A stretch of DNA of 38,262 nucleotides from Bacteroidales bacterium (GTDB lineage: Bacteria; Bacteroidota; Bacteroidia; Bacteroidales; P3). Below, in pieces: positions 5,939-38,200 of the stretch. Both the position numbers and the translations under genes were made by a program. The DNA is taken from positions 1 through 38,262 of the forward strand of contig JAFSQF010000055.1 of NCBI GenBank assembly GCA_017446745.1, in the 5' to 3' direction. Position 1 is the stretch's first letter. Each line of letters opens with the position of its first letter. Below the pieces are notes generated by a model. The model was not told the DNA's origin. It ran no database searches and saw only the letters and a program-made list of their open reading frames with translations.

Positions 5939-6092
5939 TAAGTAACCGGTCAAATTTAATTGACATTTATGATAATTCAACTGCATTTACCGGCATTCAC
6001 GTTCTATAAATGTTATTTATGGTAATTGCTGGTCATTTATGGTAATTGCTGTTCAAAGAAAAATAAAGTTAATTTAGGTCAGCCACTTATTT
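5939..6092. repeat. MITE-like element, copy 2
   Basis: Begins TAAGTAACCGGTCAAATTTA and ends in AGGTCAGCCACTTATT, a degenerate inverted repeat of the start. The body holds the words TTCACGTTCTATAAAT and GGTAATTGCTG. It is nearly identical to 26044-26200 and is the more diverged, inverted relative of copies 1 and 4. It lies in the 499-base spacer between the hdr-like cluster and the VOC gene. Confidence 0.8.
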
Positions 6093-6107
6093 TTTTACTG
6101 TTAGTTA

Positions 6108-18967: not shown

Positions 18968-20233
18968 ATGAAAAGCAAAGAAGAGATAGCAGCAAAGAAG
19001 CTGTTTGCCGGAGAAAAGAAACCCTCCATGCACCGCCGAAGCGACTGGAACAACTACTATGACAAGAAGATCTATATGCTGACGTTGGTTGTTGAGGGGC
19101 GACGACCGCTATTAGGCACCCTTGAGGGTGATGGCGAAGGAGCATTGGTAAGGCACAGCGAGCTGGGTGACGAAGTGTTCCGTTGCTGGCTCAGCATACC
19201 TCAATACCACCCTGAGGTCATGCTGCTTGCGTTCCAGATGATGCCCGACCATCTGCACGGGGTGTTGTTTGTGACGCGCGAGATGGGGCAGCACCTCGGG
19301 CAGGTGGTGAGTGGCTTCAAGGCTGGCTGCAACAAAGCCTACCGCCGCCTTTTCGGCGTGCCGGCCATTGGCGAGGCAAAAATCAGCCCCCTTAGCATTA
19401 GCGAGGCGGTGCCTCGCCCTACAACAACCGCCCCCCAAAAACAACCTCCCCAACCCTACCAACCCCAACCCTACCAGCCCCAACCCTACCAGCCCCTGCC
19501 CCACCAGCCTTCCTCGGTCGGTTGTTTGTACGGAGAGGCACCGCCTCTCCACGAAAAGCCAACCCCGGCACCGCCTCTTCCCGAAAAGCAAACCCCGGCA
19601 CCGCCTCTCCCCGAAAAGCAAGCCCCGGCACTGCCCCTCCCTTCCCAGCACCGCCTGAAAAAAGACGACAAGCGCCACGGCCTCCTCTTCGAACGCGGCT
19701 ACAACGACCTCATCTCAAAGAGCTATGACATGCTACCCCGCATAGTGGCCTACCTCCGCGACAACCCTCGCCGTCTGGCCATCAAACGCGCCCATCCCGA
19801 CTACTTCCGCGTGCGCTTCGGACTGCCGGTAGGCAACAACACCTACTCCGCCATAGGCAACCGTTTCCTGTTGGAAAGGCCCGAGAAAGTCCAGGTGCAA
19901 CTGTCGCGCAGCCTTACAGACATTGAGATAGAACAGCAAGTGCAGCACTTCATCGCACTGGCAGAGCAAGGTGCCATCCTTGTGTCGCCTGCCATCTCTC
20001 CGGCCGAACAAGCGGTGATGCGTGCCGCCCTAAACCGGGGACTGCCCCTCATTTTCCTCACCCCCTGGGGCTTCACAAAATTTTCTAAACCCGGGCACCA
20101 GTACTTCGAGGCATGCTCCAAAGGCAACCTCCTGCTGCTTACGCCATGGGAGCACCACAACGAACGTGTCCCATTGACGCGCTCGATGTGCCTGACACTG
20201 AACGCACTGGCTAAGCAGATCTGCATGATGTAG
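18968..20233 (+). CDS. RAYT-like HUH transposase fused to a DprA/SLOG-like domain
   Basis: The protein has 421 residues. Residues 30-130 are a Y1/REP-associated tyrosine transposase-like HUH domain, with the metal-binding HxH in MPDHLHG (His95, His97) after a LSIPQYHPEV strand. The expected Tyr helix comes only at about 244-270 (GYNDLISKSYDMLPRIVAYLRDNPRR); Tyr262 of YLRDNP or Tyr253 is the candidate nucleophile. Between them is a low-complexity Pro-rich insert (about 131-228) made of QPYQP and EKxxPAPPLP repeats. Residues 295-421 resemble a DprA/Smf-type Rossmann fold: GAILVSPAISPAEQAVMRAAL, GLPLIFLTPWGF and NLLLLTPWEHH. HUH proteins of this type nick single-stranded REP hairpins. REP-like palindromes lie in and near this gene. 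I cannot say whether it is active. Confidence 0.75.
   Translation: MKSKEEIAAKKLFAGEKKPSMHRRSDWNNYYDKKIYMLTLVVEGRRPLLGTLEGDGEGALVRHSELGDEVFRCWLSIPQYHPEVMLLAFQMMPDHLHGVLFVTREMGQHLGQVVSGFKAGCNKAYRRLFGVPAIGEAKISPLSISEAVPRPTTTAPQKQPPQPYQPQPYQPQPYQPLPHQPSSVGCLYGEAPPLHEKPTPAPPLPEKQTPAPPLPEKQAPALPLPSQHRLKKDDKRHGLLFERGYNDLISKSYDMLPRIVAYLRDNPRRLAIKRAHPDYFRVRFGLPVGNNTYSAIGNRFLLERPEKVQVQLSRSLTDIEIEQQVQHFIALAEQGAILVSPAISPAEQAVMRAALNRGLPLIFLTPWGFTKFSKPGHQYFEACSKGNLLLLTPWEHHNERVPLTRSMCLTLNALAKQICMM
19401..19550. repeat. Inverted pair of REP-like palindromes inside the RAYT-like gene
   Basis: The palindrome GCGAGGCGGTGCCTCGC (19401-19417) continues with CCTACAACAACCG. An inverted counterpart with stem GGAGAGGC/GCCTCTCC (19532-19550) is preceded by the complement of that tail (CGGTTGTTTGTAC, 19519-19531). 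The two therefore form an inverted REP pair about 100 bases apart, both translated in frame. Between them lie 15-bp repeats encoding QPYQP (about 19449-19497). Confidence 0.8.
19537..19641. repeat. 30-bp coding tandem repeat derived from a REP half-site
   Basis: Three 30-bp units starting GGCACCGCCTCT (19537, 19567, 19597) and a partial fourth (19627) encode APPLxEKxxP. Each unit begins with the right arm of the adjacent palindrome, which suggests the array arose by repeated duplication of the REP half plus its flank. All units keep the reading frame. Confidence 0.8.
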
Positions 20234-23923: not shown

Positions 23924-25822
23924 ATGAAGAAACTGGAATTATTATCACCCGCCAAGAATCTGGAGCAGGGGAAGGCAGCCATCAACCATGGTGCCGATGC
24001 CCTCTATATCGGAGCACCCCTTTTCGGTGCACGTCAGGCCGCCAGCAACAGCATGGCCGATATCGAGGAACTGGTGCGCTACGCCCATCTCTATGGTTCC
24101 AAGGTATTTGCAACAGTGAACACGTTGCTCTACGACAACGAGCTGGAAGAGGCCCAACGCATGATGTGGCAGCTCTACAATGCCGGTGTTGATGCCGCCA
24201 TAGTGCAGGACATGGGCCTGCTGGAGATGGACCTTCCCCCCATCGAGCTCCATGCCTCCACCCAGACCCACAACTACGACCTGCGGCGCGTAAAGTTTTT
24301 GGAACAAGTAGGTTTCAAACGCATCATCTTGGCTCGCGAGACCTCGTTGGAACAGATGTCGGCATTGTGGAGAGAGACCGCCGTCGACCTGGAAGCCTTC
24401 GTGCATGGAGCCCTCTGTGTTTGCTTCAGCGGACAATGCTATATGAGCCTCTACCTCAATGGTCGCAGCGGCAATCGCGGAGCCTGCTCACAGCCCTGCC
24501 GCTCGGCCTACGACCTGGCCAACAGCAACGGCAAGGTGCTTCGCCACAACGAGCACCTGCTCTCGCTGCGCGACTTCAACGCATCGCAACATCTTGAAAG
24601 CATGATAGCTGCCGGCATCACATCGTTCAAGATAGAGGGACGCCTGAAAGACATCAGCTACGTCAAGAACATCACAGCCTACTACCGCCAGCTGCTTGAC
24701 AAGATCCTCGCCGGCAAGCAGGGGTCAGCGTTGTGCGCCGCCTCCTCGGGCACTACCCGTTTCTTCTTCACCCCCGACCCCTACCGCACCTTCAATCGTG
24801 GCTATACCGACTATTTCCTTGTCGACCGCCACCCGATGGCATCGCCCGCCACGCAAAAATCCCTTGGCAAACCCATAGGCACAGTTGTATCTTGCAAAGG
24901 CAGCACCTTGATAGTAAAGGCTATAGAACCACTTACCTCTGGTGATGGACTTTGTTTCTTCAGCAAAGAAAAGGTCCTTGAAGGCTTTCTTGTAAATGGT
25001 ACGCAGGCGTCCACGCCTGCGAAAAGTCATGGTACGCAGGCGGGGTCGCCTGCGACAACAATAATTGCAAACAAACCCCTGTCCATACCTCCCGGCACCA
25101 CCCTGTACCGCAACAACGACTTCGCCTTCGAGAAACAGCTGAAAGGCAACAGTGCCGAACGCAAAATCGCTGTTTCCATGACAGTTGATGAAACCCCCGA
25201 GGGACTGCAACTGACGCTGACCGACGTTGATGGCTGCCAAGCCACAGAAAAGCTCAGCTGTGAGAAACAACCCGCCAACGCCCCCGACAAGATGCGTGAA
25301 ACAATTGAACGACAGCTCTCAAAACTCGGCGACACGCCATTTGAGATCGCGAAATTTGAAAGCAACATCTCAATACCCTTCTTTGTGCCGGCATCCTTGC
25401 TCAACGACCTGCGTCGCAAAGCCGTGGCACAGCTGCAAGAAACCCGTATCATACACTTCAGCCCGAAGGCTACCACCTTTGTTCCAAACGACTTACCCTA
25501 TTTTGAGGAAAGCGTAGGCCCCTTAGCCAACATCATCAACAGTAATTCTGAAGCCTTCTACCGTCGCCACCATACCGAGGTGTCTGGCCTCGGCCCCGAC
25601 CATAACCCTCAAGACCTGACTAACAATCCGGCATTCAAGACCCCCCTGATGACCTGCAAATACTGCCTGCGTTACGAATTTGGTCAGTGCCTTCAGCTGA
25701 AATGCAATACCGACGTCGGTAACGACTGGCGTGGCGACCTTTACCTGCTAAACAACGGACACCGCTTCCGCCTCCATTTCGACTGCACCAACTGCCAGAT
25801 GCAAATCTTCGCCGACAGCTAA
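23924..25822 (+). CDS. Peptidase U32 family protein (RlhA/TrhP-like RNA hydroxylase)
   Basis: The protein has 632 residues. The N-terminal U32 barrel starts MKKLELLSPAKNLEQGKAAI and has GADALYIGAP, ELHASTQTHNYD and the family core FVHGALCVCFSGQCYMSLYLNGRSGNRG-ACSQPCR with several Cys (about 161-190), then SFKIEGRLKDISYV. Relatives with this core (E. coli RlhA/YdcP, TrhP/YegQ) hydroxylate rRNA or tRNA cytidine/uridine rather than cleave protein. The C-terminal extension ends in a CKYCLRYEFGQC and CTNCQM Cys set that could bind metal. A 57-base insert with two REP-like palindromes is translated in frame near residues 358-379. The gene is probably transcribed after the barrel gene. Confidence 0.85.
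   Translation: MKKLELLSPAKNLEQGKAAINHGADALYIGAPLFGARQAASNSMADIEELVRYAHLYGSKVFATVNTLLYDNELEEAQRMMWQLYNAGVDAAIVQDMGLLEMDLPPIELHASTQTHNYDLRRVKFLEQVGFKRIILARETSLEQMSALWRETAVDLEAFVHGALCVCFSGQCYMSLYLNGRSGNRGACSQPCRSAYDLANSNGKVLRHNEHLLSLRDFNASQHLESMIAAGITSFKIEGRLKDISYVKNITAYYRQLLDKILAGKQGSALCAASSGTTRFFFTPDPYRTFNRGYTDYFLVDRHPMASPATQKSLGKPIGTVVSCKGSTLIVKAIEPLTSGDGLCFFSKEKVLEGFLVNGTQASTPAKSHGTQAGSPATTIIANKPLSIPPGTTLYRNNDFAFEKQLKGNSAERKIAVSMTVDETPEGLQLTLTDVDGCQATEKLSCEKQPANAPDKMRETIERQLSKLGDTPFEIAKFESNISIPFFVPASLLNDLRRKAVAQLQETRIIHFSPKATTFVPNDLPYFEESVGPLANIINSNSEAFYRRHHTEVSGLGPDHNPQDLTNNPAFKTPLMTCKYCLRYEFGQCLQLKCNTDVGNDWRGDLYLLNNGHRFRLHFDCTNCQMQIFADS
24998..25054. repeat. Two in-frame REP-like palindromes inside the U32 gene
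   Basis: The copies at 24998-25021 and 25031-25054 start GGTACGCAGGCG and close with CGCCTGCG. They have 8-bp stems and 4-base loops (TCCA and GGGT). Their spacing is exactly 33 bases, so together they encode GTQASTPAKSH and GTQAGSPATT without breaking the frame. The same family lies between genes at 15941-15963 and 25960-25983. Confidence 0.9.
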
Positions 25823-26043: not shown

Positions 26044-26200
26044 TAAGTAACCGGTCATATTTAATTGACATTTATGATAATTCACCTGCATTTACCGGCA
26101 TTCACGTTCTATAAATGTTATTTATGGTAATTGCTGGTCATTTATGGTAATTGCTGTTCAAGGAAAATGAAAGTTAATTTAGGTCAGCCACTTATTTTTT
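26044..26200. repeat. MITE-like element, copy 3
   Basis: Nearly identical to copy 2 (5939-6092), starting TAAGTAACCGGTCA and ending CCACTTATTTTTT. It is opposed to copy 4, 80 bases away, so the two lie as an inverted pair. Confidence 0.8.
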
Positions 26201-26280: not shown

Positions 26281-26420
26281 TAAGTAAACGGTCAAAATTA
26301 GCGCTCATATTCATTTAACAGCAATTAACAGCAATTATCCAGATATTATTTATATAACGTGAATGACCATGAATGCCCGTGAATTATCGCAAATGTCAAA
26401 TAAATTTGACTAATTACTTA
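26281..26420. repeat. MITE-like element, copy 4
   Basis: Nearly identical to copy 1 but with two instead of three ACAGCAATTA units (26318-26337). The ends TAAGTAAACGGTCAAAATTA and the complement of AAATTTGACTAATTACTTA match at about 16 of 20 positions. The remaining spacer to the helicase start (26421-26536) is AT-rich and shows no clear promoter. Confidence 0.85.
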
Positions 26421-37750: not shown

Positions 37751-38039
37751 ATTCGTCTAATGTTGTTGTTTTTCAATTTGCAAAGATACTCATAATTATT
37801 GAATTGACCAAAATTATTGCTAAAAGAAGTAAAAAAACAGTTAATCTGTCCCAACACTAATTAAGATATTTATTTTTATACAAGGAAACAAATTTAACCC
37901 AAGTTCAACCTTGATAATTTTTTGGGGGCATTTCTCAACCAATCAGATTTGTAAAGTGTTGATCTATAATAATACCTAGTCTGCAAAATAGCAAAAGTCG
38001 GTTTGTACTACCCAGAGCGTATGAAATAATGTTCCTTTT

Positions 38040-38200
38040 CAAGGGTCGTTTTCTCGCCTCAGCATAGTGCAAACACTTCGTGATTTGCCCTCTGCATTCG
38101 GCTTAACGAAAACGTTCTTTACAAGGGCCGTTTTCTCGCCTCAGCATAGTGCAAACACTTCGTGATTTGCCCTCTGCATTCGGCTTAACGAAAACGTTCT
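38040..38200. repeat. 79-bp tandem direct repeat, two units
   Basis: Units 38040-38118 and 38122-38200 differ by one transition near the start (CAAGGGTCG versus CAAGGGCCG) and are otherwise identical over 79 bases. Each contains CAGCATAGTGCAAACACTTC and TGCATTCGGCTTAACG. The region 37751-38039 is AT-rich with no gene seen. The repeat may be part of a mobile or recombinational element that continues beyond the window. Confidence 0.9.

Follow-up and report, generated by a model that had tools for sequence, protein, structure and literature searches.

Transposase genes with associated palindromes

REP-associated tyrosine transposases (RAYTs) are thought to spread repetitive extragenic palindromes (REPs), and RAYT genes sometimes persist without REPs. 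An inverted pair of REPs is known as a REPIN. The gene analysed here is RAYT-like and lies in a 38,262-nt stretch of DNA from a Bacteroidales bacterium (GenBank contig JAFSQF010000055.1, referred to as the window), which is contig C98 within a 2.79-Mb genome. REP-like palindromes are part of its own reading frame. The reading slightly favoured here is that the gene of a RAYT-type HUH single-strand transposase carries REP hairpins on which its product would be expected to act.

The closest described system is subclass 2.4 of the tnpA-REP genes, for which Quentin et al. (2018; PMC6006769) describe REPs that lie in frame within the transposase gene, as a rule in the stretch from HuH to Y. A transposase gene with in-frame REPs is therefore already published in kind. 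For this subclass, the motifs NH[IFV]H, WQ and YIxNNP are given there and the C-terminal extension is described as absent. In REPtrons, TnpA-REP is accompanied by flanking REPs, and enzyme and REP are described to co-evolve (PMC8266576). The palindromic elements of Rickettsia and other intragenic REPs are presented as translated in-frame inserts in many unrelated genes (PMC3733652). Literature searches yielded no further paper on the trait in Prevotella or on REPs inside transposase genes.

Identity and relatives of the transposase

Judged by its motifs, the open reading frame (ORF) encodes a RAYT/TnpA-REP-like HUH transposase whose HUH and Tyr motifs are those of class 2 Y1 enzymes. Its main features, with conservation among 69 related genes, are:

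18968 to 20233, plus strand: RAYT/TnpA-REP-like HUH transposase gene, 421-aa ORF
19250 to 19258, plus strand: HUH motif H95-L-H97, both His kept in 69 of 69 genes
19751 to 19753, plus strand: codon of the catalytic Tyr Y262 (YLRDNPRR); Y kept in 69, N in 69 and P in 68 of 69 genes
19778 to 20230, plus strand: C-terminal domain of about 150 aa, no Pfam match

The related genes derive from 81 ORFs that matched both halves of the query and represent 69 distinct genes, 61 of which make up alignment A1; ten ORFs matching one half only were excluded. Family matches occurred in at least 65 of 190 genomes, and only fetched loci were used. Three named relatives with the gene are Prevotella (from sheep omasum and water buffalo omasum) or uncultured Prevotellaceae. 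The HuH and Y---NP signature of class 2 Y1 enzymes and RAYTs is present at the frequencies listed above. On NCBIfam NF047646, a curated RAYT model, the window protein scored 24.3 bits and thus remained below the cut-off of 80, but 60 of 61 family members matched the model at E ≤ 0.01. The family therefore appears related to, but outside, the curated equivalog. A PDB profile search only reached IS200-type TnpA, and weakly (E 0.011). Pfam, PHROGs and PADLOC gave nothing firm for the C-terminal domain, with a PsyrA match at E 0.024 only; by eye, this domain has some likeness to a DprA/SLOG-type fold.

In the window protein, a linker of 112 residues connects the helix that follows HUH to the strand that precedes the Tyr helix, and in-frame hairpins between HuH and Y are a trait that the protein's family shares with subclass 2.4. 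The family differs from this subclass in several respects. It has DHxH and YxxDNP motifs, with D preceding the first H in 68 of 69 genes and NP in 62 of 69. The position of the subclass 2.4 WQ motif is occupied by F in 56 and by W in 13 of the 69 genes. There is an extra C-terminal domain (the C-terminal half is present in all 69 genes by selection), and the insertion is placed by motif order in the αC to β4 loop instead of the β3 to αC loop. Moreover, the window family shows paired stem changes and hairpins that are kept without a detected REP population. Since motifs, missing C-terminal extension and insertion loop were compared and all differ, membership in subclass 2.4 is not claimed.

Twelve matches outside the family were obtained from a 395-genome sample of the phylum (E ≤ 1e-20). 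These are short genes, ten of which have PNH.H, and their matches stop at profile positions 208-219 of 369, before the C-terminal domain. Eleven of the twelve contain a hairpin between HUH and Tyr, and one (L214) has hairpins on both sides of αC. These nearest relatives found outside the family look like subclass 2.4, and by this comparison the window family is probably an extended relative of it with another insertion loop.

The other described systems resemble the locus in part. As in REPtrons, a HUH/Tyr enzyme is associated with tagged hairpins; however, the REPs border the gene in a REPtron and are located inside the gene in the window family, where a similar hairpin was found in the flanks of only 9 of 57 genes (fetched flanks were mostly short). 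Like the Rickettsia elements, the palindromes are translated in frame as protein inserts, but they are concentrated in one transposase family and show paired stem changes instead of being distributed over many unrelated genes. With a REPIN, the window gene shares two inverted REPs and a short spacer, yet here the pair lies within a transposase ORF and the spacer is coding.

Palindromes, tags and arrays in the reading frame

The linker region contains the following elements:

19401 to 19417, plus strand: palindrome 1, GCGAGGC-GGT-GCCTCGC, 7-bp stem, loop GGT, tag on the 3' side, followed by CCTACAACAACCG
19418 to 19430, minus strand: tag of palindrome 1, reading CGGTTGTTGTAGG on the minus strand, GTAG one base off the hairpin foot
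19448 to 19509, plus strand: 15-bp tandem array between the palindromes, encoding QPYQP units
19519 to 19531, plus strand: tag of palindrome 2, CGGTTGTTTGTAC, reading GTACAAACAACCG on the other strand
19532 to 19550, plus strand: palindrome 2, GGAGAGGC-ACC-GCCTCTCC, 8-bp stem, loop ACC, inverted relative to palindrome 1
19537 to 19641, plus strand: 30-bp tandem array encoding APPLPEKQTP units, 3.5 copies, 90% match, from the right half of palindrome 2 and its flank

An initial annotation of the window had placed an inverted pair of palindromes in frame between the HUH motif and the Tyr helix. Coordinates and ORF agree with this, as the 421-aa ORF reads through the palindromes and both arrays in frame, between H95/H97 and Y262. 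A repeat finder reported both palindromes as one inverted pair with 22-nt arms (91% complementary, 101 nt apart). Palindrome 1 has the tag GTAG and palindrome 2 the tag GTAC, and the tags face inward, toward each other. The tail that they were said to share is near-identical, not identical: C stands against G before TAC and there is one extra A. The proposed origin of the 30-bp units from half a palindrome and its flank holds, since the array starts inside palindrome 2; the 15-bp array had been overlooked. Neither array is visible by eye in the linkers of close orthologues, which vary in length. When the window gene was shuffled among synonymous codons, 3 of 2000 shuffled versions had two or more hairpins with an arm of ≥7 in the linker. 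Just 5' of palindrome 1, at 19370-19377, lies the half palindrome GGCGAGGC, perhaps a decayed extra copy.

Hairpin frequency in the family

Family counts were restricted to perfect hairpins with an arm of ≥8 and a loop of 2-4 nt. The collected ORFs run from stop to stop and were trimmed to the likely start for counts by part; six hairpins of the N-terminal part (in L064, L084, L085, L102, L108 and L111) are 5' of this start and were excluded.

The linkers contained 54 hairpins in 41 of the 69 genes, compared to a mean of 0.78 and a maximum of 3 in 100 synonymously shuffled sets. In the coding part before the linker, 17 hairpins were found in 15 genes (2.15 in shuffles, maximum 6, 40 shuffles). 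Taken together, 48 of 69 genes had a hairpin in the linker or the earlier coding part (shuffle mean 3.0, maximum 8), and a unique event in the window gene was rejected as the palindromes are common in the family. The C-terminal part of the 69 genes showed no excess (5 versus 2.1 in shuffles). Among 282 other ORFs of the own genome, 26 hairpins were detected in 353,883 nt; this corresponds to 0.073 per kb versus 4.84 per kb in linkers, an approximately 66-fold higher density, in which loops were not compared with loops. Of 34 linker hairpins with a three-nt loop, 20 had GTA at a distance of 0-2 nt from the foot, compared to 5.4% of random places. Only two of the 69 genes (L077 and L079) come from outside the genus, and neither has such a hairpin. 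The own genome contains three paralogues of the window gene, each with a palindrome of its own that lies in the linker or upstream of it within the gene.

Paired stem changes at the same sites

The homologous sites of relatives mostly hold palindromes with different stems, and on a tree of the core, loop length and inner stem largely track the clades. The strongest covariation test was performed on a whole clade of 21 genes aligned by position (A2). Here, 82.5% of the cells were paired, nine of twelve pairs had both partners changed, and not one of 500 shuffles attained any of the five covariation measures. In a motif-picked set of twelve genes (A3), all 96 cells were paired, with 16 double changes and no one-sided change. 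Sites of the window type were 94.6% paired in each of two sets (seven rows, two from one gene). Alignment A4 leaves out two sites belonging to hairpin 2. The covariation score of the three smaller sets (A3 and the two window-type sets) was reached by 0, 0 and 3 of 500 shuffles, with unexceptional numbers of pairs and of pair types; according to the tool's own warning, kinship among rows may inflate such scores.

Hairpins with a two-nt loop (class d) share the core CCGANNTCGG between two sites of the gene; its reading frame is 0 at the linker site and 1 at the earlier one. The frame difference was seen in all five genes with hairpins at both sites. Thus, the two sites have the DNA in common and not a peptide. 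The paired letter changes at kept sites suggest that the hairpins themselves matter.

According to the initial annotation, orthologues in distant genera with the same Pro-rich protein sequence but no palindrome would speak against its proposal. No such combination was seen among close orthologues, in which the palindromes mostly stay and change their stems in pairs; the L083 fragment has only a 5-bp stem.

Dispersed copies

In the genome of one relative (G190), the in-gene hairpin type is dispersed as a REP that shares the design of tag, loop and stem. The core of the first hairpin was found at 15 exact places, twelve of which were read, and GTAN stood at the foot in 12 of 12 even though the search pattern was free of the tag. 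Of the second in-gene hairpin, including its GTAC tag, there were eight exact places, one in the gene and 7 outside. The 20 dispersed copies that were read comprise twelve core places, seven places of the second hairpin and a copy with two mismatches. GTAN was preceded by GGCTNNGC in 16 of 20, and a fully paired three-base foot was present in 19 of 20. Both in-gene copies match this tag-and-hairpin design, which bears out the earlier description of the window palindromes as REP-like.

Other relatives gave a different picture, as far as the searched patterns and samples reach. G091 and G105 each have a single exact core of hairpin 1, located in the gene, and their only hairpin 2 within three mismatches is in the gene as well. 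The exact core is also present once, in the gene, in G191, with cousins of hairpin 2 elsewhere (four places at three mismatches). Across eleven genomes, 9 of 11 places with the class-d pattern are in RAYT genes, the remaining two being a one-mismatch place in G032 and a permease-like ORF in G108. A sample of 329,091 bases from G028 contained 30 hairpins, none of them repeated, and the two of class-d type are both in the gene.

In the own genome the type is rare, with four exact places of GAGGCGGTGCCTC, two of them in the window gene. The gene carries the tags GGTTGTTGTAG and GGTTGTTTGTAC, one copy on contig C4 carries GGTTGTCTGTAC, and the long tag is shared by one of three dispersed own-genome copies. 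A high-copy REP of the window type was rejected for this genome, as GTACGGMGAGGC with one mismatch gave 27 places versus 37 in the reversed control (3 exact). REPtron-type flanking REPs of the window gene were rejected as well: the contig has no further GAGGCGGTGCCTC within one mismatch and no further GTAC-tagged hairpin of the type. Hairpins of a class with 27 places in the genome flank the C113 paralogue. Separately, a locus on C4 (L022, 1220-2717) resembles a diversity-generating retroelement by eye and has two palindromes of the window type, one intergenic and one within the reverse transcriptase ORF.

Possible role of the in-gene hairpins

By inference, the in-gene hairpins are most likely recognition sites for the encoded enzyme. 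They would be kept because the enzyme binds them as single-stranded DNA in its own gene, and this binding could lead to autoregulation or self-targeting. Dispersed REPs might also be regenerated from the in-gene hairpin, which would act as a permanent seed copy. The translated peptide would be tolerated if the αC to β4 loop is free to lengthen, with Pro-rich arrays added afterwards by slippage. A more far-reaching proposal can only be put forward tentatively: the hairpin would be a conserved cis element that is independent of any REP population and constitutes the permanent substrate of the enzyme (for autoregulation or self-targeted editing of single-stranded DNA), gene and hairpin would evolve in step through compensatory changes, and REPs elsewhere in the genome would be occasional offshoots of this master copy. 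On this proposal, the peptide encoded by the REP may lie close to the protein's REP-binding face.

Several points weigh against recognition by the encoded enzyme. The rows of A3 were picked by motif, mostly from genes already known to have hairpins, and the set leaves out L065 (3-nt shift) and L085 (imperfect 6-bp stem). All three smaller sets were unexceptional on the tool's two most robust measures (331/456, 189/112 and 51/30 of 500 shuffles). Linkers versus all coding DNA is not a like-with-like control, and neither the linker nor the earlier coding part has a hairpin in 21 of 69 genes. Among linker hairpins, none of the 14 with a two-nt loop and one of the 14 with a four-nt loop had the GTA tag, and few genes have a similar hairpin in their flanks. 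The in-gene hairpin of the C113 paralogue differs by one inner pair from the 27-place type. In addition, REP-like hairpins are in frame in an unrelated reverse transcriptase gene on C4 and in a U32-type ORF of the window.

The strongest rival is that of tolerated selfish insertions, in which REPs land in many loops, those of the transposase are permissive, and template switching keeps the quasi-palindromes perfect without any benefit. It is somewhat unlikely. Intragenic REPs are described for many genes (PMC3733652), the in-frame palindromes in other genes here, including the pair in the U32-type ORF, are of this kind, and both the lack of one-sided intermediates among the 96 A3 cells and the near absence of GTA tags from two loop classes would fit it. 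The linker density is less readily accommodated, with the above restriction on its control, as is the core common to both class-d sites. Furthermore, hairpins persist where the searched patterns and samples revealed no dispersed copies, so fresh insertion does not explain them in those genomes.

Alternatively, the hairpins could act in the transcript, for example by slowing translation or protecting the mRNA. A transposase, that of ISPpu9, is reported to be regulated by mRNA structure (PMC8450116), and some G-U cells occur in A2. Nevertheless, this explanation is improbable: A3 contained no G-U or one-sided state in 96 cells, some dispersed copies are outside ORFs (by a rough test that also mislabelled the known in-gene copy L180), and GTAN recurs beside the foot of dispersed copies, which an mRNA stem would not need. 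A conserved peptide that merely happens to have palindromic codons is largely rejected and very improbable, for although the motifs EAVP and RPISVD recur and the core frame is constant within each class-d site, synonymous shuffles seldom reproduce the hairpins, the reading frame of the core differs between the two class-d sites, and residues are altered on both sides when stem letters change in pairs (VALETQ, VATVSQ, VASMMQ, VAVTRQ).

This family has a substrate-like hairpin inside the gene that changes in a paired manner. It does so in many genomes, several of which yielded no dispersed copy. Co-evolution of enzyme and hairpin would be readable from single genes, and the importance of the in-gene site is directly testable.

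Further observations in the window and its genome

Two other Y1 genes of the own genome are associated with palindromes. L173 on C112 is a subclass-2.4-like RAYT (NHVH, WQ, YINNNP) flanked by REPs of the GTAGGAGG type, one of which overlaps the end of the ORF. L177 (C113:83472) has a YIDNQEEHH motif resembling subclass 1.2 and is followed by seven palindromes of the CCGTGGG type, which with 14 occurrences is more frequent than any other hairpin in the own-genome sample. Table 1 of PMC6006769 gives no REP for subclass 1.2.

In the window, two direct palindromes with the tag GGTACGCAGGCG are located at 24999-25060 inside ORF 23924-25822, which we take to be U32-peptidase-like; they are REP-like and belong to a different family. 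Long near-identical repeats of 157 and 109 nt (96-97%) are present at 5939-6095 and 26044-26200 and at 1705-1813 and 26312-26420, partly inverted relative to each other. An 82-bp tandem duplication is found at 38035-38198, close to the end of the contig.
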